DNA from: Archangium primigenium
Lineage (GTDB): Bacteria > Myxococcota > Myxococcia > Myxococcales > Myxococcaceae
Length of the DNA: 64,000 nt
Direction: 5' to 3'
NCBI RefSeq assembly: GCF_016904885.1
Contig: NZ_JADWYI010000001.1
Span: 3,100,001-3,164,000, forward strand
Shown piece after piece: positions 23,143 to 35,174 of the stretch (its first letter is position 1; each line of letters starts with the position of its first letter). The notes under the pieces are model-generated. The model saw only the letters and a list, made by a program, of their open reading frames with translations, was not told where the DNA came from and searched no databases. Made by a program: the position numbers and the translations under genes.

Positions 23143-24078
23143 ATGCGTCCCGAGCCCCGACTCGCCGTCGTCTACGAACATCCCGAGTGGTTCAATCCGC
23201 TGTTCGCCGTCCTCGAGCGGCGCGGCATCCCCTACCTGCCGCTGCGCATCGACGAGCACCACTTCGACCTGAGTGAGCGCGAGCCCCCGGCGCCCGTCAT
23301 CTTCAGCCGCGTGGCGATGAGCTCCTTCCTGCGCCAGGGCCAGCACGCCATCTTCTACGCCCAGTCGCTCTATGCCCACTGGGCGCAGGCGGGCGCGCGC
23401 ATCATCAATGGCAATCCGGCCCTGGCGGTGGACACCTCCAAGGCGCGGCAGATGTCGCTCATCAACGCCCTGGGCTACGCCACGCCCGCCACGCGCGTGG
23501 TGCACCGCCGGGAGGACCTGCCGCGCGCCGCCCAGGGGCTGCGCTTTCCGCTCGTGGTGAAGGTCAACATCGGCGGCTCGGGCGCGGGCGTCGTCCGCTA
23601 CGACAGCCTGGAGCAGCTCACCCAGGCCGTCGCCGAGGGCACCACCCCGGAGAGCATCGACAGCGTGCTGCTCGTGCAGGAGTTCATCCCCACGCGCGAC
23701 CGGCGCGTCGTGCGTGCGGAGACCCTGGACGGCCGCTTCCTCTACGCCATCTCGCTGACGACGGACGGGGGCTCGTTCGATCTGTGCCCCGCGGATGCGT
23801 GCAGGGTCGGCAAACCCGCCATCACCATCACCCGGACCGACCTGGACGCGGACACCGTCCGGGCGGTGGAGGCCATCTCGCGCGCGGCCCACATGGAGCT
23901 GTGCGGCATCGAGTTCATGATCGACGAGCGCGACGGCTCCCGCCGCTTCTACGACATCAACGGCCTGTCCAACTTCGTGGCCAGACCCCTCGAGGTGCTC
24001 GGGTGGGATCCGCACGAGCAGCTGGTGGACTACCTGGAGAAGGTCCTCGCCACGGCGCGGCACGGGGAGGCGGCATGA
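23143..24078 (+). CDS. ATP-grasp ligase, RimK-like
   Basis: A 311-residue ATP-grasp enzyme resembling RimK/glutathione-synthetase-type ligases, which join a carboxylate to an amine through an acyl phosphate. An N-terminal Rossmann-like part (LAVVYEHPEWFNPL, IINGNPALAVDTSKARQMSL) precedes the ATP-grasp domain with LVVKVNIGGSGAGVVRYD (glycine loop), VLLVQEFIP, the RAETLDGRFLYAIS strand and the metal-binding CGIEFMIDE...FYDINGLSNF, where E, D and N side chains bind Mg. Its stop overlaps the next gene (ATGA), which encodes a flavin monooxygenase, so the two likely act in the same pathway. Substrate is unknown. Confidence 0.85.
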   Translation: MRPEPRLAVVYEHPEWFNPLFAVLERRGIPYLPLRIDEHHFDLSEREPPAPVIFSRVAMSSFLRQGQHAIFYAQSLYAHWAQAGARIINGNPALAVDTSKARQMSLINALGYATPATRVVHRREDLPRAAQGLRFPLVVKVNIGGSGAGVVRYDSLEQLTQAVAEGTTPESIDSVLLVQEFIPTRDRRVVRAETLDGRFLYAISLTTDGGSFDLCPADACRVGKPAITITRTDLDADTVRAVEAISRAAHMELCGIEFMIDERDGSRRFYDINGLSNFVARPLEVLGWDPHEQLVDYLEKVLATARHGEAA

Positions 24079-25100
24079 GGTACGGCTTCTGGGCCCCCGT
24101 CTTCGGCGGCTGGCTGCGCAACGTGCGCGACGAGAACATGTCCGCCACGTGGGAGTACATGAGCCGGCTGTGCCGGCGCGCGGAGGAGATCGGCTACGAC
24201 CTGACGCTCATCGCCGAGCTCAACCTCAACGACATCAAGGGCGTGCGCGAGCCGGCCCTGGACGCCTGGTCCACCGCCGCGGCGCTCGCGGCCGTGACGC
24301 GCACGCTCGAGCTCATGGTGGCGGTGCGGCCCAACTTCCACCACCCCGCGCTGTTCGCCAAGCAGGCGGCCAACATCGACCGCATCGCGGGGGGCCGGCT
24401 GTCGCTCAACGTGGTGTCCTCCTGGTGGGCGGACGAGGCCCGGCAGTACGGCCTGCCCTTCGACGAGCACGATGACCGCTATGGCCGCACCACCGAGTGG
24501 CTGCGCGTGGTGGACGGGCTGTGGTCCCAGACGCCTTTCAGCTTCGAGGGCCAGCGCTACCGGCTCCAGGACGCCATCTGCGAGCCCAAGCCCCTGGCCT
24601 CGCCCCGGCCCACGGTCTACGCGGGCGGGGAGTCCGAGACGGCCAAGCAGATGATCGCGCGGCAGTGTGACGCCTACGTGATGCACGGGGATGCGCCGGA
24701 CGTCATCGCCGCCAAGGTCCAGGACATGCGCGCGCGCCGGGAGCGCGAGGGCCTGCCGCCCATGCGCTTCGGCATGGCCGCCTACGCCATCGTGCGCGAC
24801 AGCCAGGCCGAGGCCGAGGCCGAGGTGGAGCGCATCACCACGCTGGACCCCGCGGCGCCGGGCTTCGCGAACTTCGAGCAGTGGCTGTCCGGCACCCAGC
24901 TGGAGCGCGAGCTGAAAATCAAGGAGTACTCGGTGTCCAACCGGGGGCTGCGGCCGGGCCTCGTCGGCACGCCCGCGCGCGTGCGCGAGCGCGTCGCCGA
25001 GTTCGAGGCCGCGGGCGTGGACCTGTTGCTGCTGCAGATGAGCCCCCAACTGGAGGAGATGGAGCGCTTCGCCGCGCACGTCATCTCCCCGAGGTCCTGA
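24075..25100 (+). CDS. LLM-class FMN-dependent monooxygenase (SfnG/SsuD-like)
   Basis: A 341-residue luciferase-like flavin monooxygenase. Family hallmarks are YGFWAPVFGGWLRN at the N-terminus, AEEIGYDLTLIAEL, TRTLELMVAVRPNFHHPALFAKQ, RIAGGRLSLNVVSSWW, EHDDRYGRTTEWLRVVDGLW and TVYAGGESETAKQM, in the usual order. These match dimethylsulfone/alkanesulfonate monooxygenases more than bacterial luciferase, so it probably needs FMNH2 from a separate reductase. It is translationally coupled to the ATP-grasp gene, which argues for a shared biosynthetic or degradative pathway rather than simple sulfur scavenging. Confidence 0.88.
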   Translation: MRYGFWAPVFGGWLRNVRDENMSATWEYMSRLCRRAEEIGYDLTLIAELNLNDIKGVREPALDAWSTAAALAAVTRTLELMVAVRPNFHHPALFAKQAANIDRIAGGRLSLNVVSSWWADEARQYGLPFDEHDDRYGRTTEWLRVVDGLWSQTPFSFEGQRYRLQDAICEPKPLASPRPTVYAGGESETAKQMIARQCDAYVMHGDAPDVIAAKVQDMRARREREGLPPMRFGMAAYAIVRDSQAEAEAEVERITTLDPAAPGFANFEQWLSGTQLERELKIKEYSVSNRGLRPGLVGTPARVRERVAEFEAAGVDLLLLQMSPQLEEMERFAAHVISPRS

Positions 25101-25630: not shown

Positions 25631-25651
25631 GAGGCGCGCGGCTCGCGCGCC
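25622..25651 (-). terminator. intrinsic terminator of the inorganic-carbon operon
   Basis: A perfect 8-bp stem (GGCGCGCG at 25633-25640, CGCGCGCC at 25644-25651) with a 3-base loop sits in the 24-base gap between converging genes. On the minus strand it is followed by TCCTATTTTT, so it best serves the leftward operon. Confidence 0.75.
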
Positions 25652-25654
25652 CGT

Positions 25655-27148
25655 TCAGTCGGCCCGGGGCGCCTCGGCCACGTGCCCGACGAGCGTCTCC
25701 ACGTGCGTGGCGCGCAGGCGCAGGAGCGGGCCCGGCATCAGCCCGCCGAGCAGCACCAGGGCCAGCAGGGAGAACACCGCCCAGCGCTCGCGCGGCATCA
25801 TGTCCTCCACCGTCTCCACCACGGGCGCGTGCCCGTGGGCGGGCGTGCCCAGGAACGTGCGCTGGAAGGAGCGCAGCAGGGTGACGCCGTTGATGGCGGT
25901 GGTGAGCAGCAGCGGGAGCGCCACCAGCGGGTGGGCGTCCAGGATGCCGTGCAGGAGCAGATCCTCGCCCACGAAGCTCAGCGTCCCGGGGAAGCCCAGG
26001 GTCGCGAAGCCCATGAGGAAGAAGAAGGCCGCCAGCCGCGGCGCGCGGCGCACGAGCCCGCCCAGCCGGTTCATGTCCGTGGTGCCCGTGCGCGACTCGA
26101 TGGCCCGCACCACGAGGATGAGCCCCGTGAGCGCGATGCCCGCCGCCACGCTCTGCACCAGCGCGCCCGCGATGCCCTGGGTGTTGCCGAGCGCCAGGCC
26201 CGTGAGCAGCAGGCCCGACTGGCTCACCATGAGGAAGCCCACCACGCGGCGCAGGTCCGTCTGCGACAGCGCCAGCACCGAGCCATAGAGCGCGCAGCAC
26301 AGCCCCAGGGCGCCCATGGCCGGGCCCACGCGCGCCCACTGCTCGGGAAACAGCGGGATGACCACCCGCACGAGCAGGTACAACCCCGCGTGGGCGTTGA
26401 TCAGCAGCACGCTCGCGCCGAAGGGGCCGCGCGACACGAGCACCGGCAGCCACGAGTGGAAGGGCACCACCGCCATGCGCACGCAGACCGCCAGCATCAG
26501 CAGGGTGAAGAGCGGCAGGCGCCAGGCCTCCGGCAGCCCGCGCGCCGTGAGCGCCTGGAGGCCGAAGGGCCCGGCGGTGCCCGCGTCCCGGCCCGCCACG
26601 CCCACCAGGATCGTGGCCAGCAGCAGGGGCAGCGTGCCCGCCACCATGTAGGCGCGGAAGGTGCGCAGCGTGCGCGCCTCGGCGCGCGCCCGGGCGCTGC
26701 GCCAGATGAGCCGACCCACCGGCATCAGGATGGCCACGAAGAAGAGCACCATGAGCGCCAGATCCTCGGCGCAGAAGAAGCCCAGCGTCATGCTCTCGGT
26801 GAGCAGCAGCGCGCCGAGCGTGTCCCGGTCCAGGGCCTGGCGCGGGCCGGCCGCCACGAGCCCCAGGGTGAGCAGGGCGATGAGCGGCAGGGCGAGCACG
26901 CTCATGCCATCCACGCCCAGGCGGTACTCCAGGCCGAGGCCGGGCACCCGGAACCAGGACTCCTCGAGCTGGGGGCCCACCGTCGTGAGGTGGAAGAGGC
27001 CCAGCACCCCGGCCGTCAGGGCCAGGGTGAGCGCCGCCACGCCCACGGTCATCTGGCGCATGCGCTCGGGCCGCCGCGCCTGGCGCAAGAGGAGCGCGCC
27101 CAGGGCCGGGACCACCACCACCAGGGAGAGAAGGGGAAAGGACCGCAT
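25655..27148 (-). CDS. NuoM-like proton-translocating subunit (third Dab-type membrane subunit)
   Basis: A 497-residue protein with about fourteen membrane helices of the complex I NuoL/M/N antiporter family. The segment VCVRMAVVPFHSWLP corresponds to the conserved TM7 K-x-P-xx-PFH-WLP motif, with Lys replaced by Arg. The TM5 position that carries the essential Glu in NuoM reads FFVAILMPVGRLI, with Val instead of Glu. Later helices keep the LRRVVGFLMVSQSGLLL and AAFFFLMGFATLGFPGTLSFVGEDLL patterns. Its start overlaps the dabB stop (ATGA). It is probably a structural or modified subunit of the carbon-uptake complex rather than a normal proton pump; that is an inference. Confidence 0.85.
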   Translation of the reverse strand: MRSFPLLSLVVVVPALGALLLRQARRPERMRQMTVGVAALTLALTAGVLGLFHLTTVGPQLEESWFRVPGLGLEYRLGVDGMSVLALPLIALLTLGLVAAGPRQALDRDTLGALLLTESMTLGFFCAEDLALMVLFFVAILMPVGRLIWRSARARAEARTLRTFRAYMVAGTLPLLLATILVGVAGRDAGTAGPFGLQALTARGLPEAWRLPLFTLLMLAVCVRMAVVPFHSWLPVLVSRGPFGASVLLINAHAGLYLLVRVVIPLFPEQWARVGPAMGALGLCCALYGSVLALSQTDLRRVVGFLMVSQSGLLLTGLALGNTQGIAGALVQSVAAGIALTGLILVVRAIESRTGTTDMNRLGGLVRRAPRLAAFFFLMGFATLGFPGTLSFVGEDLLLHGILDAHPLVALPLLLTTAINGVTLLRSFQRTFLGTPAHGHAPVVETVEDMMPRERWAVFSLLALVLLGGLMPGPLLRLRATHVETLVGHVAEAPRAD

Positions 27149-28575
27149 CACACCGCTCCTGTCGAGGGACCGCCCGGGGTGCTCTCGGGCGTCGTCACTA
27201 AGTCGGACCGCTCGGGGGACTTCGTCCGCGCGTCGGCCGGGGACGTCCAGCCGCTCAGCGCGCTCATCCACCGCTGCTCCATCCCATCCAGCCACTGGCC
27301 CGCCCGGAACAGCGGCGCGAGTGCCCAGCGCTCGTGCATCACCTCCAGCGAGAAGCGCTCGAGGGCCAAGCGGTAGAGCCGCCGCAGCAGCCCCTCGGGG
27401 AGCACCCGGTGGGCCACGGCGACCGCGGGCGGCGGCGCCAGGCGCAGCGCCGCGCGCTGGCCCAGCACCTCGCGCAGGGCCGAGGGCGCCCGGAGCAACT
27501 GCAGGCAGCGCAGGCACGCGTGCGCCACCAGGTGCGCGAGCGCCAGCCGGTACAGCCCCAGGCCCACCTCGGCGAACATGAGGCCCACCTGGGTGAGCAC
27601 GCCATAGGCCAGCGCGCTCTTCACGTCCGTCTGCACGCGCCACACCAGCGTGGCGTGCACCGCGGTGAGCAGTCCCACCCCCACGAGCAGCCCGCTCACC
27701 AGGGGCGCGCGCTCCAGCAGGGGCGCCACGCGCAGGAGCAGGTAGACGCCCGCGTGCACCGACAGCGCGCCGTAGAAGAGGGCGCTGGAGGGCGTGGGGC
27801 CCTCCATGGCGCGCGGCAGCCAGCTGCTGAAGGGCAGCTGCGCCGACTTGCCCATGGCCGCGAGCATCAGGCACAGCGCCATCACCGTGGCGGGCACCAC
27901 GCCCAGCGCCGCGGCCGGCCCCGGCCAGGGCCAGGAGCCCAGGGCCTCGGACCACTCGGCCGTGCCCGCGAAGTGGTGCAAGAGCACCGCGCCCACCAGG
28001 AGGCCCGTGTCGCACAGCCGGTAGATGGTGAAGGCGCGCAGGCCCGAGCGCACCGGCGTCGAGCGCTCGTGGAAGAAGCCGATGAGCAGGGCGGACGTGA
28101 GGCCCACCAGCTCCCAGCCCACGAAGAGCAGGTCGATGCTGCCGCTCTCCACCAGCACCAGCATGCCCGTGGCGAAGACGCACAAGAGCAGGAAGAAGCG
28201 CGCGAAGCCCGGCTCGCGGTGCAGGTAGTTCACCGAGAAGCGGCCGATGAGCAGGGTGATGGCGCTGGAGAGCACCATCATCGTCACCGAGAGCAGGTCC
28301 GCCCGGAGCGTCAGGTCGAAGGCGTAGTGGCCCGTGCTGAACCACTGGCCCACGTCCAGCTCCACCACGTCCTGGTGCATCCACAGCATGCTCGCCGCCG
28401 TCAGCACCGAGCAGCCCAGCGACAGCCACAGCGCGCCCAGCACCCAGCGCACCACGGCGCGCTCGCCCGGGGCGCGGTGCATGAGCATCACCCCACCCAG
28501 GCCCACGAAGGCCAGCAGCGGCCAGAGCGGCGCCAGGGCCGCGACCCAACCCATCTGCATGTTACTGACGTGCAT
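27148..28575 (-). CDS. dabB: DabB, NuoL-like cation-translocating subunit of the DAC inorganic-carbon transporter
   Basis: A 475-residue NuoL-family membrane protein with about twelve helices. The conserved TM5 Glu is present (LLFVGWELVGLTSALLIGFF), as are the TM7 Lys and WLP motif (AAMGKSAQLPFSSWLPRAMEGPTPSSALFYGA split across residues 238-269). In Dab complexes this subunit is thought to couple a cation gradient to CO2 hydration by DabA. The start at 28575 overlaps the end of dabA by 14 bases. The C-terminal 60 residues are polar and poorly conserved. The NuoL-like character is clear; naming it DabB rests on the adjacent dabA. Confidence 0.88.
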   Translation of the reverse strand: MHVSNMQMGWVAALAPLWPLLAFVGLGGVMLMHRAPGERAVVRWVLGALWLSLGCSVLTAASMLWMHQDVVELDVGQWFSTGHYAFDLTLRADLLSVTMMVLSSAITLLIGRFSVNYLHREPGFARFFLLLCVFATGMLVLVESGSIDLLFVGWELVGLTSALLIGFFHERSTPVRSGLRAFTIYRLCDTGLLVGAVLLHHFAGTAEWSEALGSWPWPGPAAALGVVPATVMALCLMLAAMGKSAQLPFSSWLPRAMEGPTPSSALFYGALSVHAGVYLLLRVAPLLERAPLVSGLLVGVGLLTAVHATLVWRVQTDVKSALAYGVLTQVGLMFAEVGLGLYRLALAHLVAHACLRCLQLLRAPSALREVLGQRAALRLAPPPAVAVAHRVLPEGLLRRLYRLALERFSLEVMHERWALAPLFRAGQWLDGMEQRWMSALSGWTSPADARTKSPERSDLVTTPESTPGGPSTGAV

Positions 28576-31500
28576 GAACGGTCTCTCCGGAGGAGGCGGG
28601 GCGCTGGGGACTGTCGATCAGCGCCGGCGGCAGGAAGTCGCGCTGCCCGCGGTACCACTCGGGCGAGGAGGCCACCACGGGCAGCGGGCCCGCGGGGGGG
28701 ATGACGGGCTCGAAGCCCCGGGGCGTGAAGCGCTGCTGCGCCCCCGTCGTGGGATCCACGCTCACCAGCTGCACCCACTGGTTGCCGATGAGCTCGCGCA
28801 GCAGCGGCTGGCGCTCGTAGATGCCGCCGAGCACCTGGGTGGAGGCCTCCACGATGATGAGCAGGCGGATGGGCTCGTGGATCTCGATCATCTGCCGGGG
28901 CAGGCCCGTGCGCAGGTCGCTCTCCACGCCGTCCATCACCCCGAGCATGCCGGTGAGGTTGTGGGGCAGCTTGGTGCCGCAGCCGTAGCGGTCATTGTCG
29001 ATGCAGGAGAAGTAGTACTCCAGGTTGATGCCCGCGCCCACGGGGCCCGCGGCGGCGAGGATCCGCTCGGCGATGGCGCCCGAGGCGTCGATCGTGGGGT
29101 CGTACGAGATGAGGAAGGCGCGCCGATCCAGGAACAGGCCCCGGCTGAGCGCGCGCCGGCCCACGATGCAGGTGGCGTTGGTGACGTGGCCCAGCTCCGG
29201 CCGCGCCTGGCTCAGGTCCGCCGAGCGCTCCTCCACGTGCCGCAGCGCCGCGGCCGGGGTCAGGCCCAGGGGCGCCGACTCGAAGCGCCGGCAGCGCTCG
29301 TGCGCGGACAGGGTGCGCGCGGCGTCCAGCGCCTCGCGCAGCGCGGCGTACTCCTCGCGCAGGCCCGCGGGGAGGGCGTCGGTCTCGTAGAGGTCGATCT
29401 CGTCCGTGGTGGTGTTGTGCTCGCCGCCCAGGAACCACGTGGTGTCGGGGATGGGGATGCCCCGCTCGCGCAGCACCGCGCGCACCTCGGGGCGGTTGGC
29501 CATCTCCGCGAACAGCCGCGCGTTGGGGCCGCCATGCCGGCCGCCGCAGGCGCCGCAGTCATAGGCGGACTGGTGGGGGTTGTTCATGCTGATGGCGCCG
29601 TGGCCCAGCACCACCACCAGCGGCGCGAAGTCCTTCACCAGGCCCATGTTCTCCAACGAGTTGGCCACGCGCGCGGCCTTCTCGGCCACGGTGAAGCCCA
29701 GGGGCTTGCCCAGGGGACTCACGGCGCCGACGGGCGCGTTCGCCTGGAGCGCCTCGGCCTGCGCGCGCAGGCTCACCAACTGGGTGCGGGGCGTGGGCAG
29801 GAGTCGGCGGGAGATCGCCTTGCGCCACTGGCCCGCCGTGCGGGGCGCGAGCACTTGCAAGGGCAGGAGCAGCACGGACACGAGGCCGAGCAACGGCGTG
29901 AGCAACCAGCTCAGCTCCAGCGCGTGGGAGCCCCCCTGCAGCCAGTGCTCGACCCGGGCCCCCAGGGCGCGCAGGCGCGCGCGGGCCTCGGCCAGATGGC
30001 CGTGCTCCGGGTGGGGCCGCTCCTCCACCACGTGTCCCGGCGTCACCACCACCGGGCACAGGGCGGCATGCCCCGGATCATCCAGCCCCAGGTAGTCCAT
30101 GGCCACGCCGAAGAAGCCCGCGATGCCGAAGGTGTCGTGCCGGGGATCGAGCTCCTCGAAGTGCCGGCGGATGGCCTCCTCGCGATCGTCCATGCAGAAG
30201 ATGACCTGGAAGCGCGGCGCCGCCACCGTGCGCGCCGACTCCGGACGGAGCCGGTTCTGCGCGAGCCCCTGGAGCACGTCCATGCGGTAGTGGTGCTCGT
30301 AGGCCTCCTGCCACACGCGGCGGCGTGCCTGCCCGTCGAACGCCTCCAGCCAGGCGAGCAGCGCCTCGCGCCGGGCCACCGGGAAGACCGCCACGTCCTG
30401 GGCGGAGAGCCCCGCGAGCTGCAGCAACTGGAACAGGCGCCAGCTGCCCTCGTCCGCCGGGCGCTCCAGGGCGCGGGGGCGGTGGGTGGCCGCGTGGTCC
30501 GCGTGCGCGAGCAGCCCCCCGAGCGGGCCCCGGTAGTCGAGCCGCCGCCGGGCGACGCTGGCCAGGGCATGGCGCTCCAGGGTGAGCCGCACGGCGAGGA
30601 AGTCCATGAGCCGCGCGGGCGGCGCGCCGGCGGGGCGGTCCGCGGGGTTGTGCTCCAGGCGGTACACCATGCCCGCCCACCCGGGCAGCGCGAGCAGCAC
30701 CCGCGTGAGATAGGGCTCCCAGTGCGTCTCGGGCACCCCGAGCTCCTCGAGCGCGGCGAGCACCACGTCCCGCGAGGACAGGTGCTCCGCGGCCGACCGG
30801 GCCAGCTCCGTGTCGAGCCCGTCGAGCCAGTCGGGCAGCAGGCCGCCGCCGAGCGTCAGCGCCCGCCACGCGGCGTACAGGCCCTGGTCACGCTCGGGCA
30901 GGTTCCAGTGGGAGACGCCCTCGTCGAGGAACGCCGAGCAGATGCGGATGAGCGGGGGGTTGACCCACTCGTTGATGTCCTCCCCCGTCGCGGCGCGCAA
31001 GGCCTCGCGGTGGCTGCGCACCGCCGCCACGGGGGCGGGACGGGCGCGGGTGGCCGTGAGCGCCGGCGTGCGGCACGCGGCCCACAGGGCGCTCACCGCG
31101 AAGCGCTCGGGGGCGCGCTCCAGCCGCTCCGTCAGCGAGCGCAGGCCGCCGTCCCCTCCGAACGCGGCGGCCAGGGCCGCGCGCGCGAGGGACACCTCGG
31201 CGCCCAGCCACCCCTCCAGGGTGAGGCGCGTGGGCGCCTGCTCCAGCCGGGACTGGACCTGGGCCACGTAGGCCTCGGCCAGCGCGTCCGGGATGCCCAG
31301 CGCGCGCAGCGCGGCGGCGCGCGGCTGGGCCCGACGGGGCTCCGCGGCGGCCGCGCGCACGGTGTGCAGCAGGTCGGGTTCCACCAGCGCGGCGGCCAGG
31401 TCCGTCACCGTCCAGTCCCGACCCACCCGGGTGAGCCAGGCCCGTACGCCCTCGGTGGAGCGGCGCAGCAGGCGCTGGCGCGCCGCGTCCGACACGTCCG

Positions 31501-31933
31501 GCCGCAGGCTCTGGGAGGCGGCGAGCTCGCTCATGCGCCAGCGCAGCGAGGCGGCCGTCTCCTCCGGAACCGGGTGCAGGAGCGCCAGGCGCTCCAACTC
31601 CAGGCGCGAGAGCGTGGGGGGCGTGAAGTCCTCGGCGGCGTTCGCGACCGCGTCCCGCTCGGCCAGGGCCGCCGCGAGGTCCGTGTCGGTGATGCGCCCG
31701 CGCCGGTACAGCTCGCGGTAGCGCGACTCGGGCAGGTACGTCTCGGTCTCGAACGTGCCGCTCGCCGCCGCCAGCGCCTCGTGGAAGGGCAGGTGCTGGA
31801 AGGCGTGCAGCGTGTTGTGGTGCACGAACACGCCGATGGGGCCCTGGGCGGGCAGCAGGTGGCCCACATGCGCCAGCACGTCATCCAGCCGCTGGCCGCG
31901 GTCCGTGGAGGAGGAGGGGGGGGAGGAGGTCAT
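28562..31933 (-). CDS. dabA: DabA, DUF2309 beta-carbonic-anhydrase-like subunit of the DAC inorganic-carbon transporter
   Basis: A large soluble or peripheral protein of about 1123 residues belonging to DUF2309 (UPF0753). It converts CO2 to bicarbonate in the cytoplasm as part of an energy-coupled carbon-accumulating complex. The four residues identified in Halothiobacillus DabA are present by position and spacing: Cys580 and Asp582 in IFCMDDREE, His778 in VLGHGAISM and Cys793 in YDCGACGGRHGG (His to Cys distance of 15, as in the studied protein). An N-terminal HHNTLHAFQHLPFHEAL block is also characteristic. Start uncertain: GTG at 31975 lies 3 bases after the SulP stop, while ATG at 31933 gives a shorter leader; neither has a clear ribosome-binding site. 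Confidence 0.93.
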   Translation of the reverse strand: MTSSPPSSSTDRGQRLDDVLAHVGHLLPAQGPIGVFVHHNTLHAFQHLPFHEALAAASGTFETETYLPESRYRELYRRGRITDTDLAAALAERDAVANAAEDFTPPTLSRLELERLALLHPVPEETAASLRWRMSELAASQSLRPDVSDAARQRLLRRSTEGVRAWLTRVGRDWTVTDLAAALVEPDLLHTVRAAAAEPRRAQPRAAALRALGIPDALAEAYVAQVQSRLEQAPTRLTLEGWLGAEVSLARAALAAAFGGDGGLRSLTERLERAPERFAVSALWAACRTPALTATRARPAPVAAVRSHREALRAATGEDINEWVNPPLIRICSAFLDEGVSHWNLPERDQGLYAAWRALTLGGGLLPDWLDGLDTELARSAAEHLSSRDVVLAALEELGVPETHWEPYLTRVLLALPGWAGMVYRLEHNPADRPAGAPPARLMDFLAVRLTLERHALASVARRRLDYRGPLGGLLAHADHAATHRPRALERPADEGSWRLFQLLQLAGLSAQDVAVFPVARREALLAWLEAFDGQARRRVWQEAYEHHYRMDVLQGLAQNRLRPESARTVAAPRFQVIFCMDDREEAIRRHFEELDPRHDTFGIAGFFGVAMDYLGLDDPGHAALCPVVVTPGHVVEERPHPEHGHLAEARARLRALGARVEHWLQGGSHALELSWLLTPLLGLVSVLLLPLQVLAPRTAGQWRKAISRRLLPTPRTQLVSLRAQAEALQANAPVGAVSPLGKPLGFTVAEKAARVANSLENMGLVKDFAPLVVVLGHGAISMNNPHQSAYDCGACGGRHGGPNARLFAEMANRPEVRAVLRERGIPIPDTTWFLGGEHNTTTDEIDLYETDALPAGLREEYAALREALDAARTLSAHERCRRFESAPLGLTPAAALRHVEERSADLSQARPELGHVTNATCIVGRRALSRGLFLDRRAFLISYDPTIDASGAIAERILAAAGPVGAGINLEYYFSCIDNDRYGCGTKLPHNLTGMLGVMDGVESDLRTGLPRQMIEIHEPIRLLIIVEASTQVLGGIYERQPLLRELIGNQWVQLVSVDPTTGAQQRFTPRGFEPVIPPAGPLPVVASSPEWYRGQRDFLPPALIDSPQRPASSGETVHARQ

Positions 31934-31978
31934 GGGGGATGTCCGAAAAGGAGGGATGTACCCAAAAACGGTCACGGC

Positions 31979-33622
31979 TCAGGACGTCAGCCCGACCGAG
32001 CCCTTGGGCGACTTCTTGCGCGCGGAGAGGGGATGCGCGGACAGGCCCTTGTGTTGCTCGAGCCCGCGCACGTGCAGCTGACGGCCCTGGCGGGAGAACT
32101 CGCCCTCCAGCTCGTGCAGCCGCTCCATCACCGTGTGGTCCACGAGCCGGGTGTCCGTCAGGTCCACCTCGACGTGCTGGGCGTCGGCGTGGCGCGCCAG
32201 CTGCTTCTTGATCTTGAGGAAGTTGGTGAACACGGCGGCGTGGCGCACGCGCAGCACCACGTGGCCCCCCTGCTTGCTCTCCTCGATGTTCGGCTGGAAC
32301 AGGCCCGTGAGCGTGGCGCCGTTGAAGAGGTGCACGAGCGCCTTGAGCACGATGCCCGCGGCCACGCCCATCAAGAGGTCCGTGGCGAGCGTCACGCCCA
32401 CCGTGAAGCTGAAGATGGCGAACTGCTCGGCGCCGATGCGGAACGTCTTGACGAACTCCTTGGGCGAGGCGAGCCGCACGCCCGCGAAGATGAGCATGGC
32501 GGCCAGGGCGGCGAGCGGGATGCGGTGGATGAGCATCGGCACGAACGCCACGAACAGCAGCAGGAAGGTGCCGTGGAAGAAGTTGGAGAGGCGGCTCTTG
32601 GCCCCGTAGTTGATGTTGGCCGAGCTGCGCACCACCTCGGAGATCATCGGCAGGCCACCGAGCAGGCCCGCGATGAGGTTGCCCACGCCCGTGGCGAACA
32701 GGTCCTTGTCCAGGTCCGAGCGGCGCTTGAGCGGATCCATCATGTCCATGGCCTTGGCCGTCAGCAGCGACTCGATGCTGCCCACCAGGGCGAACATGAC
32801 GATGTACTTGAGGGAGGCGGCGGTGAAGACGGCCGAGAAGTCCGGGAAGGTGATGGCCGACAGGAGGTTGCTCGGCAGGTTCACCAGGAACTTGGGGCCC
32901 ACCGAGAACTGCTCGTGGGAGAAGGTGAAGGTGTGCTCGTGATCCAGGTCGAAGTAGAGCCCCATGGGCACGGCGAACAGCAGGGCGAGCAGGGGGCCGG
33001 GCACGCGCTTGAGCACGGTCACCCGCTGCGCGAGCGCCTGGTGGCCAAAGAGCAGCACGAGGCTCATCACGCCGATGAAGGCGATCTCCGGGTTGAGCTT
33101 CATCAGGCTGTGGGGGATTTCCGCGATGAGGTGCAGCGGCTCCTTGGCCGCGGGCACCACGCCCAGCAGCACGTGGATCTGCTTGGAGCAGATGATGATG
33201 CCGATGGCGGCGAGCATGCCGTGCACCACCGAGGACGGGAAGAAATCACCGAGCGTGCCGGTGCGCAGCAGCGCGAAGACGATCTGCACGACGGCGCCCA
33301 CCACGATGGTGGCCAGGGCGCGGCGGTAGCCCGTCTGCGCATCCCCGTTGCCCAACTCCGTCACCGCGCCGAGCGCGATGACGATGAGCCCCGCGGCCGG
33401 CCCCTTGATGGTCAAGCGGGCGCTGCCCAGCCAGGAGGAGACGACGCCGCCCACCACCGCGGTGAGGATGCCGGCCACGGGCGGAAACCCGCTCGCCATG
33501 GCGATGCCCAGGCACAGCGGCAGGGCGATCAGGAAGACGAGGAAACCGGAGACGATGTCGCTCTTCCACGTCGACGGACCGGGGGCGGTGTCCGGCGTGG
33601 AGGGCAGGGGGTGAGACTGCAT
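31979..33622 (-). CDS. SulP-family anion (bicarbonate/sulfate) transporter with STAS domain
   Basis: A 547-residue transporter with about twelve to fourteen membrane helices and a C-terminal STAS domain (about residues 425-530, including VEVDLTDTRLVDHTVMERLHEL). Transport-core motifs include GFLVFLIALPLCLGIAMASGFPPVAG at the first helices and GVGNLIAGLLGGLPMISEVVRSSANI in the middle. Members of this group occur beside or fused to carbonic anhydrases and import bicarbonate with sodium or protons. It is the first gene of the dab operon, which suggests bicarbonate rather than sulfate. The ATG at 33622 is favoured; the upstream extension to 33694 is not conserved-looking. Confidence 0.88.
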   Translation of the reverse strand: MQSHPLPSTPDTAPGPSTWKSDIVSGFLVFLIALPLCLGIAMASGFPPVAGILTAVVGGVVSSWLGSARLTIKGPAAGLIVIALGAVTELGNGDAQTGYRRALATIVVGAVVQIVFALLRTGTLGDFFPSSVVHGMLAAIGIIICSKQIHVLLGVVPAAKEPLHLIAEIPHSLMKLNPEIAFIGVMSLVLLFGHQALAQRVTVLKRVPGPLLALLFAVPMGLYFDLDHEHTFTFSHEQFSVGPKFLVNLPSNLLSAITFPDFSAVFTAASLKYIVMFALVGSIESLLTAKAMDMMDPLKRRSDLDKDLFATGVGNLIAGLLGGLPMISEVVRSSANINYGAKSRLSNFFHGTFLLLFVAFVPMLIHRIPLAALAAMLIFAGVRLASPKEFVKTFRIGAEQFAIFSFTVGVTLATDLLMGVAAGIVLKALVHLFNGATLTGLFQPNIEESKQGGHVVLRVRHAAVFTNFLKIKKQLARHADAQHVEVDLTDTRLVDHTVMERLHELEGEFSRQGRQLHVRGLEQHKGLSAHPLSARKKSPKGSVGLTS

Positions 33623-33839
33623 GGGGTTCCATCCTTCTGTGAGGCCCGCGATGACGCCGACGCGGCGCGCGCTGACGAAGGACAGGGATGGCACGAGTCA
33701 GGTTCTGGTTCCGCGGCGCACTCATTTCCCCGGCGTGTCCCGGACGCGCTGTCGTTGCGCGTCCAATCAAGGGGAACGGAGGCGCTGCTCGCCCGGTCGC
33801 CCGTTCCCGTTGGAGGAGAAGAAATAAAGCGACAGTGGA

Positions 33840-33868
33840 TTGACGTCTTTCGGGAACCCACGTGTAGA
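33840..33868 (+). promoter_or_regulatory. putative promoter of the ECF sigma factor gene
   Basis: TTGACG (33840-33845) and TGTAGA (33863-33868) are separated by 17 bases in an unusually AT-rich part of the 299-base divergent region 33623-33921. This is a reasonable housekeeping-type promoter 54 bases upstream of the ATG at 33922. A GGGAAC element (33852-33857) resembling an ECF -35 box lies inside it, so autoregulation is also possible. Confidence 0.4.
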
Positions 33869-33921
33869 TCATTCCATCCCATGGACAGCGTCGTGATGGC
33901 CAACAGCAGGATGGGGCGGAG

Positions 33922-34530
33922 ATGAGCGAGCCCCGGGACGCGGAGCAGGAGCGCCGACGTCAGGCGCGTGCTCATTTCGAGGAGCGGGTGCAGCCGCTGC
34001 TGCCGCGACTGCATCGGCTGTGTCTGACGTTGTGCCGGGACAAACAGGAGGCGGAGGACCTGTTGCAGGACGCGCTGGTGCGCGCCTTCCTCCATCAGGA
34101 CAGCTTCGCGCAGCGAGGGTCTTTCTTTGGGTGGCTGTGTGGCATCGTTCGCAATCAGTTCATCGAGACGCGACGCTCGGTGGCCCGCCGCCGGTCGTTG
34201 TTCGACTCCGTCCTGGAAGGGGCCTCGTCCGTCCTGGGCTCGCTGTTCACCGGGGGCACGGACGTGAAGGATCCCGAGGCCCAGGTGTGCGTGTCCCAGG
34301 AGGCGGAGTTGATGATGCGCTGCCTGCATGCGCTGCCCGAGAAGTTCCGCCTGGTGGTGCTGTTGTGTGACGTCGAGGAGCTTGGGTACGAGGAGGTGTC
34401 GGCCTCGCTCGGGATTCCCGTGGGCACGGTGAAGAGCCGCCACTTCCGGGGGCGCGCCCAGCTCGGCGCGGCCTTCAAGCAGTTCCAGTCCCAGCCAGCG
34501 CCAGCCGTGAGCGCGGGAGGCCGTTCATGA
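33922..34530 (+). CDS. ECF-type RNA polymerase sigma factor
   Basis: A 202-residue ECF sigma factor. Region 2 is clear (LLPRLHRLCLTLCRDKQEAEDLLQDALVRAFLH, spread over residues 26-58, and FFGWLCGIVRNQFIETRRS), as is region 4 (LPEKFRLVVLLCDVEELGYEEVSASLGIPVGTVKSR over about 138-175), whose helix-turn-helix reads the -35 element. GGGGCGGAG precedes the ATG. The stop overlaps the next gene by four bases; that gene encodes a single-pass membrane protein, the usual place of an anti-sigma factor. It diverges from the carbon-uptake operon and may control it, but this is only positional inference. Confidence 0.92.
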   Translation: MSEPRDAEQERRRQARAHFEERVQPLLPRLHRLCLTLCRDKQEAEDLLQDALVRAFLHQDSFAQRGSFFGWLCGIVRNQFIETRRSVARRRSLFDSVLEGASSVLGSLFTGGTDVKDPEAQVCVSQEAELMMRCLHALPEKFRLVVLLCDVEELGYEEVSASLGIPVGTVKSRHFRGRAQLGAAFKQFQSQPAPAVSAGGRS

Positions 34531-35174
34531 GCACGAACAAGGATGCGGGTCTTCCCCCCCTGTCACCGGAGGCGTCCGCCGCCCTGGCCGCCTTGCGCAA
34601 CGAGCGTCCCAGTGCCCACCTGGAGTACCGGCTGCACAAGGCGCTGCAGGAGGCGGAGCTCCCGGGCGCGCCGCCGGAGCGGCGTCCCGACCCGTCCCCC
34701 CGGGAGCGGGTGCGCGGCGTGGCGCGGCACCCGGCCCACCGGGGCCTGCTGAGCGTGGCGCTCGTCAGCATGCTGGTGCTGCTGGTGGTGCACGTGGACG
34801 GGTGGGAGGAGGACCTGGCGGTCCAGAGCGAGACCATGCCCCTGCGCCACGTGTCCTTGCGGCTGCCGGGCGAGGGCGCGGGCTGGCTGGAGCTGCCCTG
34901 GACCCACGGCGTCCATTCCGGGGAGCCGGCCACGGTGCGCCTGGACGCGCCCGCGGAGCTCGACTTCCACCGGCACGCGGAGAGCCTGCCGTCGCTGCAA
35001 CTGCTGAGCTGTGACGCGGGGCGGTGCATCCACCAGTTCACCGCCGTCACGGGCGACACCGCCACGCCCCTGCGGGTGCGCATCGACAAGCCCGGGCGCT
35101 ACGAGTTCAGCCTCTCGCACGCGTCGGACTCGCGCCAGGTGCAGGAGCGCTTCGTCGTGCACGTGGACCACTGA
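34527..35174 (+). CDS. single-pass membrane protein, probable anti-sigma factor
   Basis: A 215-residue protein with a cytoplasmic N-terminal part of about 73 residues, one transmembrane helix (residues 74-90, LLSVALVSMLVLLVVHV) and an extracytoplasmic domain of about 120 residues with two cysteines (SCDAGRC) and beta-strand character (TPLRVRIDKPGRYEFSL). This topology and the four-base overlap with the sigma gene fit an anti-sigma factor. It lacks the zinc-binding HxxxCxxC motif, so it would belong to a non-ZAS class. I cannot identify a family for the outer domain. The extracytoplasmic CDAGRC could act as a redox or metal sensor; that is speculative. Confidence 0.6.
   Translation: MSTNKDAGLPPLSPEASAALAALRNERPSAHLEYRLHKALQEAELPGAPPERRPDPSPRERVRGVARHPAHRGLLSVALVSMLVLLVVHVDGWEEDLAVQSETMPLRHVSLRLPGEGAGWLELPWTHGVHSGEPATVRLDAPAELDFHRHAESLPSLQLLSCDAGRCIHQFTAVTGDTATPLRVRIDKPGRYEFSLSHASDSRQVQERFVVHVDH

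Follow-up and report, generated by a model that had tools for sequence, protein, structure and literature searches.

A 64,000-nucleotide stretch of the Archangium primigenium genome (contig NZ_JADWYI010000001.1, positions 3,100,001 to 3,164,000), referred to below as the window, contains a Dab-type locus in the order sulP-dabA-dabB-(NuoM-like gene). The four genes lie on the minus strand, span exactly 25655-33622 and have ends that overlap or nearly touch. The gap between sulP and dabA is 3 nt if dabA begins at its GTG and 45 nt if it begins at its ATG, dabA and dabB overlap by 14 nt, and dabB and the NuoM-like gene overlap by 1 nt (TGATG). A first-pass annotation had described these genes as a linked set that is closed by a strong terminator, and both the coordinates and the Pfam matches agree with this, as do a GC-rich stem and a T-run at 25652-25632 (Table 1). 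It had also called the Dab locus complete, which is confirmed by the presence of a full-length DabA, a linked NuoL-like DabB and the zinc site. All 12 Myxococcaceae relatives that were fully examined have these four genes in this order, with sulP likewise first, so the grouping is not due to chance. A plus-strand open reading frame at 28334-33925 (1863 amino acids, aa) was rejected as a shadow frame, the domain matches being in the minus-strand frames.

Table 1. Features of the dab locus in the window and of related loci elsewhere (ECF, extracytoplasmic function).
Feature	Coordinates or loci	Strand	Description
sulP	31979..33622	-	547 aa SulP-family anion transporter with C-terminal STAS-like domain; PF00916 4e-63, STAS match weak
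dabA	28562..31933	-	1123 aa from ATG at 31933 (GTG alternative at 31975); beta-carbonic-anhydrase-like catalytic subunit; PF10070 8e-251
dabB	27148..28575	-	475 aa NuoL-like membrane subunit; Proton_antipo_M 1e-38 and Proton_antipo_N
dabC (name proposed in this analysis)	25655..27148	-	497 aa NuoM-like subunit; Proton_antipo_M 3e-38; TIGR01972 1e-86
Predicted intrinsic terminator	25632..25652	-	9-bp stem, 8 GC, then CCTATTTTTG; T-run after last stop
ECF sigma factor	33922..34530	+	202 aa, divergent from sulP; Pfam Sigma70_r2/r4_2
Putative anti-sigma partner	34527..35174	+	215 aa, no Pfam match; overlaps sigma gene by 4 nt
Predicted ECF-type promoter motif GGAACC-N10-TCRTKCCRTC	33687..33712	-	upstream of sulP
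Motif GGAACC-N10-TCRTKCCRTC	33853..33878	+	faces sigma gene; possible autoregulation site
OprO/P-type porin gene	L243 1583-2992	+	Porin_O_P 1e-20; exact motif copy upstream
Four-module Dab operons, first part	L054, L056, L064, L065, L072, L087, L091, L094, L098, L100		
Four-module Dab operons, second part	L101, L107, L108, L110, L119, L120, L128, L214, L234, L238		
Mrp-linked loci	L115, L117, L121, L122, L123, L124, L209		DabA with finger Asp and Leu at 658
Mrp/MBH-type operon content			mnhE, mnhG, MbhD/E-like, mnhB, mnhC, two PF00361 modules flanking a NuoL-like protein of 674-737 aa

DAB2 (DabA2-DabB2) of Halothiobacillus neapolitanus, whose mechanism was described in 2026 by cryo-electron microscopy (PDB 9rd0; PMC13144422), is the one Dab pump for which a structure-based mechanism was found in the open-licence literature. 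DabA of the window covers positions 2-747 of the 747 in the PF10070 profile and aligns to the DabA2 chain (9rd0_A) with a phmmer value of 1e-69. Its residues Cys580, Asp582, His778 and Cys793 had been correctly identified, with numbering from the ATG. To place these residues in a broader context, 154 DabA and 142 DabB sequences were collected from 148 loci plus the window, drawn from genome contigs, Myxococcales genomes, gammaproteobacterial and Bacteroidota genomes and plasmids, and residues were read from alignments. The zinc site, with its Asp-Arg dyad (DabA2 Cys351/Asp353/Arg355/His524/Cys539), shows no variation in any of the 154 DabA proteins, window included. This conservation, together with the alignment to DabA2, could point to a conventional DabAB pump with precisely the mechanism of DAB2, in which the NuoM-like protein and SulP would be accessories or hitchhikers. 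Such an explanation nevertheless appears unlikely because of several features of the catalytic and membrane subunits.

The first of these features is the finger of DabA. In DAB2, finger residue Glu444 replaces NuoL Lys399/Asp400 in the periplasmic half-channel, and the E444A/Q substitutions abolish activity (PMC13144422). A second residue, Leu658, stands for the Gln/His of ordinary beta-carbonic anhydrases and was reported to be strictly conserved in 150 DabA2 homologues (PMC13144422). DabA of the window possesses Pro680 and His916, respectively, at these positions. When loci are divided into a window type, termed dabA-first, where dabA precedes dabB and a NuoM-like protein is present, and a DAB2 type, where dabB precedes dabA, the two differ sharply. 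All 37 DAB2-type DabA proteins have Leu at 658, and 35 of them have the finger Glu, with Ser in the other two. Among the 110 window-type proteins, 108 have His at 658 and two have Asn, and none has the finger Glu; the His/Leu difference also shows in a direct pairwise comparison with the DabA2 chain, and the finger column depends on the multiple alignment. A third, Mrp-linked set (n=7) combines Leu at 658 and a finger Asp with a TM5 Glu (TM, transmembrane helix). The change at 658 is compatible with a mechanism like that of DAB2, where replacement of Leu658 leaves activity in vivo unimpaired (PMC13144422). The absence from 110/110 proteins of the finger Glu that DAB2 needs speaks against one. 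Within the main texts of the open-licence literature, the distinction of two DabA/DabB types at the residue level appears to be new.

The membrane subunit DabB differs as well. The first-pass annotation had noted a TM5 Glu and a TM7 Lys in DabB, and both are present (Glu155 and Lys243) and do not vary among 28 aligned DabB proteins. It had taken the TM5 Glu as confirmation of DabB, but the characterized DabB2 lacks this NuoL residue, having Ile151 in its place, and the I151E substitution halves growth yield (PMC13144422). Thus, the TM5 Glu marks another type. It is found in 0/37 DAB2-type DabB proteins and in 97 of the 98 readable window-type proteins, the remaining one having Lys. The corresponding Glu gate in TM5 of the complex I subunit NuoL is close to where NuoL meets its neighbor subunit (PMC13144422). 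An AlphaFold2 model of DabB (predicted local distance difference test score, pLDDT, 85; predicted template-modeling score, pTM, 0.84) aligns over residues 8-443 with residues 1-574 of Escherichia coli NuoL; 420 positions are paired (Z 43.5, 3.9 A), which leaves about 150 NuoL residues without a counterpart. By the helix list, the model comprises TM1-11 of NuoL and the lateral helix but no TM12-14, a further point against a pump identical to DAB2. DabB2 (9rd0_B) was matched by sequence; it is absent among the best 50 structural matches, which implies no difference in fold.

The structure missing from DabB may be supplied by the NuoM-like partner. In the columns of Paracoccus NuoM, the residue set for proton pumping consists of TM5 Glu, TM7 Lys, TM8 Lys and TM12 Glu, for which DabC has Val, Arg224, His and Glu, the last within a retained Glu395-Asp396 pair (FVGEDLL). 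Extra PF00361 genes are present in window-type loci wherever the contig extends far enough, with one clear exception (L233), where DabB was not found either. Loci of the Myxococcota, Planctomycetota and Acidobacteriota usually have a single such gene, placed after dabB. In the encoded protein the TM5 Glu is replaced, the TM7 Lys is nearly always Arg and the TM8 Lys is lost, and the acidic TM12 residue is retained (GED, GAE and ADD forms and close variants). Conservation of DabC peaks in residues 301-400, up to and including TM12. The partner is shortened to 354-368 aa in L045, L047 and L048, and in 14 loci of Methylococcales, Bacteroidota and one Nitrosomonas all that remains of it is an extension at the C-terminus of a DabB that is about 620-640 aa long. 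This extension matches DabC residues 351-440, that is TM12-13 (hhalign E 2e-15), and the short and fused forms group together within the window-type clade of the DabA tree. In a model of the fused L125 protein (pLDDT 74, pTM 0.76), the core is as in the window DabB and a helix is broken at 564/571, just ahead of the GED motif, as in NuoL TM12. The linkage of DabA, DabB and the NuoM-like protein or its remnant holds across Myxococcota, Planctomycetota, Acidobacteriota, Pseudomonadota and Bacteroidota, which speaks against a hitchhiking gene. An initial notion that the TM5 Glu tracks the count of separate PF00361 genes was refined, since the Glu is likewise present in DabB proteins of about 625 aa that are not accompanied by a second gene; these carry the fused TM12-13. 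A natural 940-aa fusion of DabB and a NuoM-like module is encoded at L081 (6958-9780, +) in a metagenome-assembled genome labelled Synechococcaceae and could help to model the interface between the two.

The locus is accompanied by a probable regulator. The ECF sigma gene divergent from sulP is kept at this place in 11/12 Myxococcaceae window-type loci (tblastn on L031-L042), and its neighbor, from its position a probable anti-sigma partner, is co-conserved. L034/G083 lacks the sigma gene, as do the other Dab loci that were checked. When the 12 intergenic regions are aligned, the promoter motif or a near-motif faces sulP in 12/12 and the sigma gene in several. The 9.49-Mb genome contains four exact copies and zero one-mismatch copies, and the reversed control gave 0. 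Two copies are at the dab/sigma locus, one precedes an OprO/P-type porin gene and one a TetR gene. Within the family, an exact copy is found in 21/22 window-type genomes; G083, which has none, is likewise without the sigma gene. Of the other genomes, only 4/74 carry one copy. Judging from position and co-occurrence, the operon is probably under the control of this sigma factor. The porin site is also found in two congeners, G075, which has an ortholog, and G073, whose porin appears truncated. The fourth copy (L246 1501-1526) lies 165 bp before the TetR-family gene (1691-2314, +) and was not seen in relatives; as it is possibly due to chance, this gene was set aside as a third target. On the other side of the operon, downstream and on the opposite strand, lies a luciferase-like (LLM) monooxygenase gene (23784-25100, +), for which the nearest models are of the SfnG type and score below their cut-offs.

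SulP is not among the recognized bicarbonate transporters. The first-pass annotation had labelled the transporter as bicarbonate-type, but SulP scores 126.7 bits against the BicA model NF050096, for which the curated cut-off is 880, leaving that label unproven. It is also below the NCBIfam DauA cut-off, and a SulP search in plasmids and a literature search returned nothing that fixes the substrate. The anion of SulP and of the putatively co-regulated porin could therefore be sulfate, phosphate or another ion, with the regulon responding to that anion, and the match of the porin to the Pfam family 'Phosphate-selective porin O and P' is consistent with this. However, SulP of the window subfamily is linked to dab genes in 37/69 window-type loci with sufficient flank, 4/6 Mrp-type loci and 0/30 DAB2-type loci. 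Because this linkage follows the DabA type and not sulfate or phosphate genes, an anion other than bicarbonate is considered improbable.

The host, a soil myxobacterium, appears to be a heterotroph, as had been supposed, and a RuBisCO large subunit was not found in its genome. The presence of a Dab system in such an organism had been presented as surprising, a view that does not hold. MpsAB of Staphylococcus aureus, composed of DabA/DabB homologues, gives dissolved inorganic carbon (DIC) to a heterotroph (PMC6689103), and homologues are well known from Bacillus, Vibrio and haloarchaea. The proposed role in anaplerotic CO2 supply fares better: since the genome encodes phosphoenolpyruvate (PEP) carboxylase, delivery of bicarbonate to carboxylases is a reasonable function. 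The genome also has one beta-carbonic-anhydrase-family match (PF00484), so Dab is probably not the only source of bicarbonate. Replacement of carbonic anhydrase by Dab, as proposed for S. aureus, was rejected for this group, as 132/145 genomes of the order have a PF00484 match, Dab-positive genomes included. Each of three congeners has two such matches. DabA itself is found in 37/145 genomes of the order, 22 of which have the long window type beside a closely related sulP.

From the genes, residues, residue distribution, predicted DabB fold and promoter motif observed here, we lean, with some reserve, toward the view that the dabA-first type is a distinct and widespread vectorial carbonic anhydrase, driven by an ion gradient, with a two-subunit membrane part, a companion SulP and an ECF switch. 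CO2 entering the cell would be hydrated by DabA, and the bicarbonate would pass to carboxylases such as PEP carboxylase. Hydration would run in one direction because of the flow of ions through the membrane subunits, which would be assembled with DabA into one complex. Unlike in DAB2, the membrane part would consist of two complementary subunits. DabB would provide NuoL TM1-11 with an intact TM5-Glu/TM7-Lys gate and no TM12-14, and DabC, its own gate lost, would provide a TM12-13 half-channel whose acidic residues do the job of finger Glu444 in DAB2. A DabA with no finger Glu, a DabB without TM12-14 and an acidic TM12-13, present in trans or as a fusion, are most simply explained if the NuoM-like subunit completes the channel. 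DabB may retain its TM5 Glu gate where a neighbor subunit exists, whereas the neighborless DAB2-type DabB lost it, as DabC, with no further neighbor, would have lost its own. The adjacent sigma factor would turn on the operon together with the outer-membrane porin.

Several considerations weigh against this view. The literature search found no experiment on any dabA-first-type member. The contact between DabC TM12 and DabB is one that we infer. In the DabA tree, 107 window-type rows are split from all others (SH-aLRT support, a likelihood-ratio branch test, 100), so the residue contrast is essentially one old, deep split and must not be tallied as many independent events. The NuoM-like proteins of two-module and of four-module systems do not fall into a single clade, and loss of the gate may therefore have occurred more than once; an orthology of DabC with the degenerate module of four-module operons received no support from the tree. 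Finally, with SulP linked in 37/69 loci with sufficient flank, it is not obligatory.

Larger operons extend the comparison. An M-dabA-dabB-M-M order, M being a NuoM-like module, or a close variant of it occurs in Methylococcales, Nitrosomonas, Magnetococcales, Thiothrix and Polyangium. Besides DabB, four-module operons encode two NuoM-like modules in which the full set of four NuoM residues is retained and one that is degenerate. In Thiothrix L076 and L102, two tandem dabA-dabB pairs lie within one operon of this type. Tentatively, and with the chance of error slightly the greater, the dabA-first systems may form a second mechanistic class, in which the half-channel is completed by a de-gated NuoM-like subunit or a fused TM12-13, the active site has a His as in ordinary beta-carbonic anhydrases, and the form of methanotrophs, nitrifiers and magnetococci is enlarged by two intact antiporter modules. 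In Nitrospirota, Nitrospina and Arenicellaceae, dabA shares an operon with a whole Mrp/MBH-type antiporter, often with sulP. This arrangement raises the possibility that the complex serves mainly in pH or cation homeostasis, as an antiporter coupled to bicarbonate chemistry, with DIC supply secondary. The link of MpsA to membrane potential and the proposal of MpsAB as a Na+/HCO3- symporter (PMC6689103) point the same way, as does the beta-carbonic-anhydrase-family gene of the genome. Nonetheless, a strain deficient in Na+ transporters was not rescued by DAB2, which had no requirement for sodium (PMC13144422), the NuoM-like subunit of the window has lost residues that an antiporter module needs, and an Mrp subunit was not found among the window genes adjoining the operon. 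Homeostasis as the main function is consequently regarded as quite unlikely.

If the proposal of a second class is correct, the two added antiporter modules could let more ions be spent per CO2. They offer a test of whether the energy per CO2 rises. The dabA-first type, which spans myxobacteria, planctomycetes, acidobacteria, methanotrophs, nitrifiers and Bacteroidota, lends itself naturally to testing which features link the flow of ions with CO2 hydration. The conserved sigma gene and the porin predicted to be co-regulated provide a route to the physiological trigger in a heterotroph.

Among known systems, cyanobacterial NDH-1MS/MS' resembles the window locus in combining NuoL-like and NuoM-like subunits with a carbonic-anhydrase-like hydration subunit. 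It is unlike it in being part of a complete ferredoxin-driven complex I, and its hydration subunit is CupA/B, not DabA. MpsAB shares with the window the presence of DabA/DabB homologues in a heterotroph, although MpsAB(C) of S. aureus, which is described without a SulP or NuoM-like gene, differs in this respect. The gene order of the window has been known since 2017, when a COGNAT study described a COG3002/YbcC 'clade C' (SulP-YbcC-NuoL-NuoM) with ybcC (dabA) upstream of nuoL and accompanied by SulP (COG0659) and NuoM (COG1008), an arrangement that is also found here (PMC5700660). That study suggested an ion-translocating complex and that more membrane subunits could move more ions; its main-text account concerns gene neighborhoods, and residue changes, subunit degeneration, fusion and regulation are absent from it (PMC5700660). 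With DAB2, the window locus shares the DabA zinc and Asp-Arg site and a NuoL-like DabB with TM1-11, the TM7 Lys and the TM6 Asp/Arg. In contrast, its gene order is reversed and an extra NuoM-like subunit and SulP are present. A divergent ECF sigma gene is found where most DAB2-type plasmid loci have a LysR gene beside them. Overall, the three features of DAB2 presented as conserved, namely the finger Glu444, Leu658 and the missing TM5 Glu, all differ in the second type.

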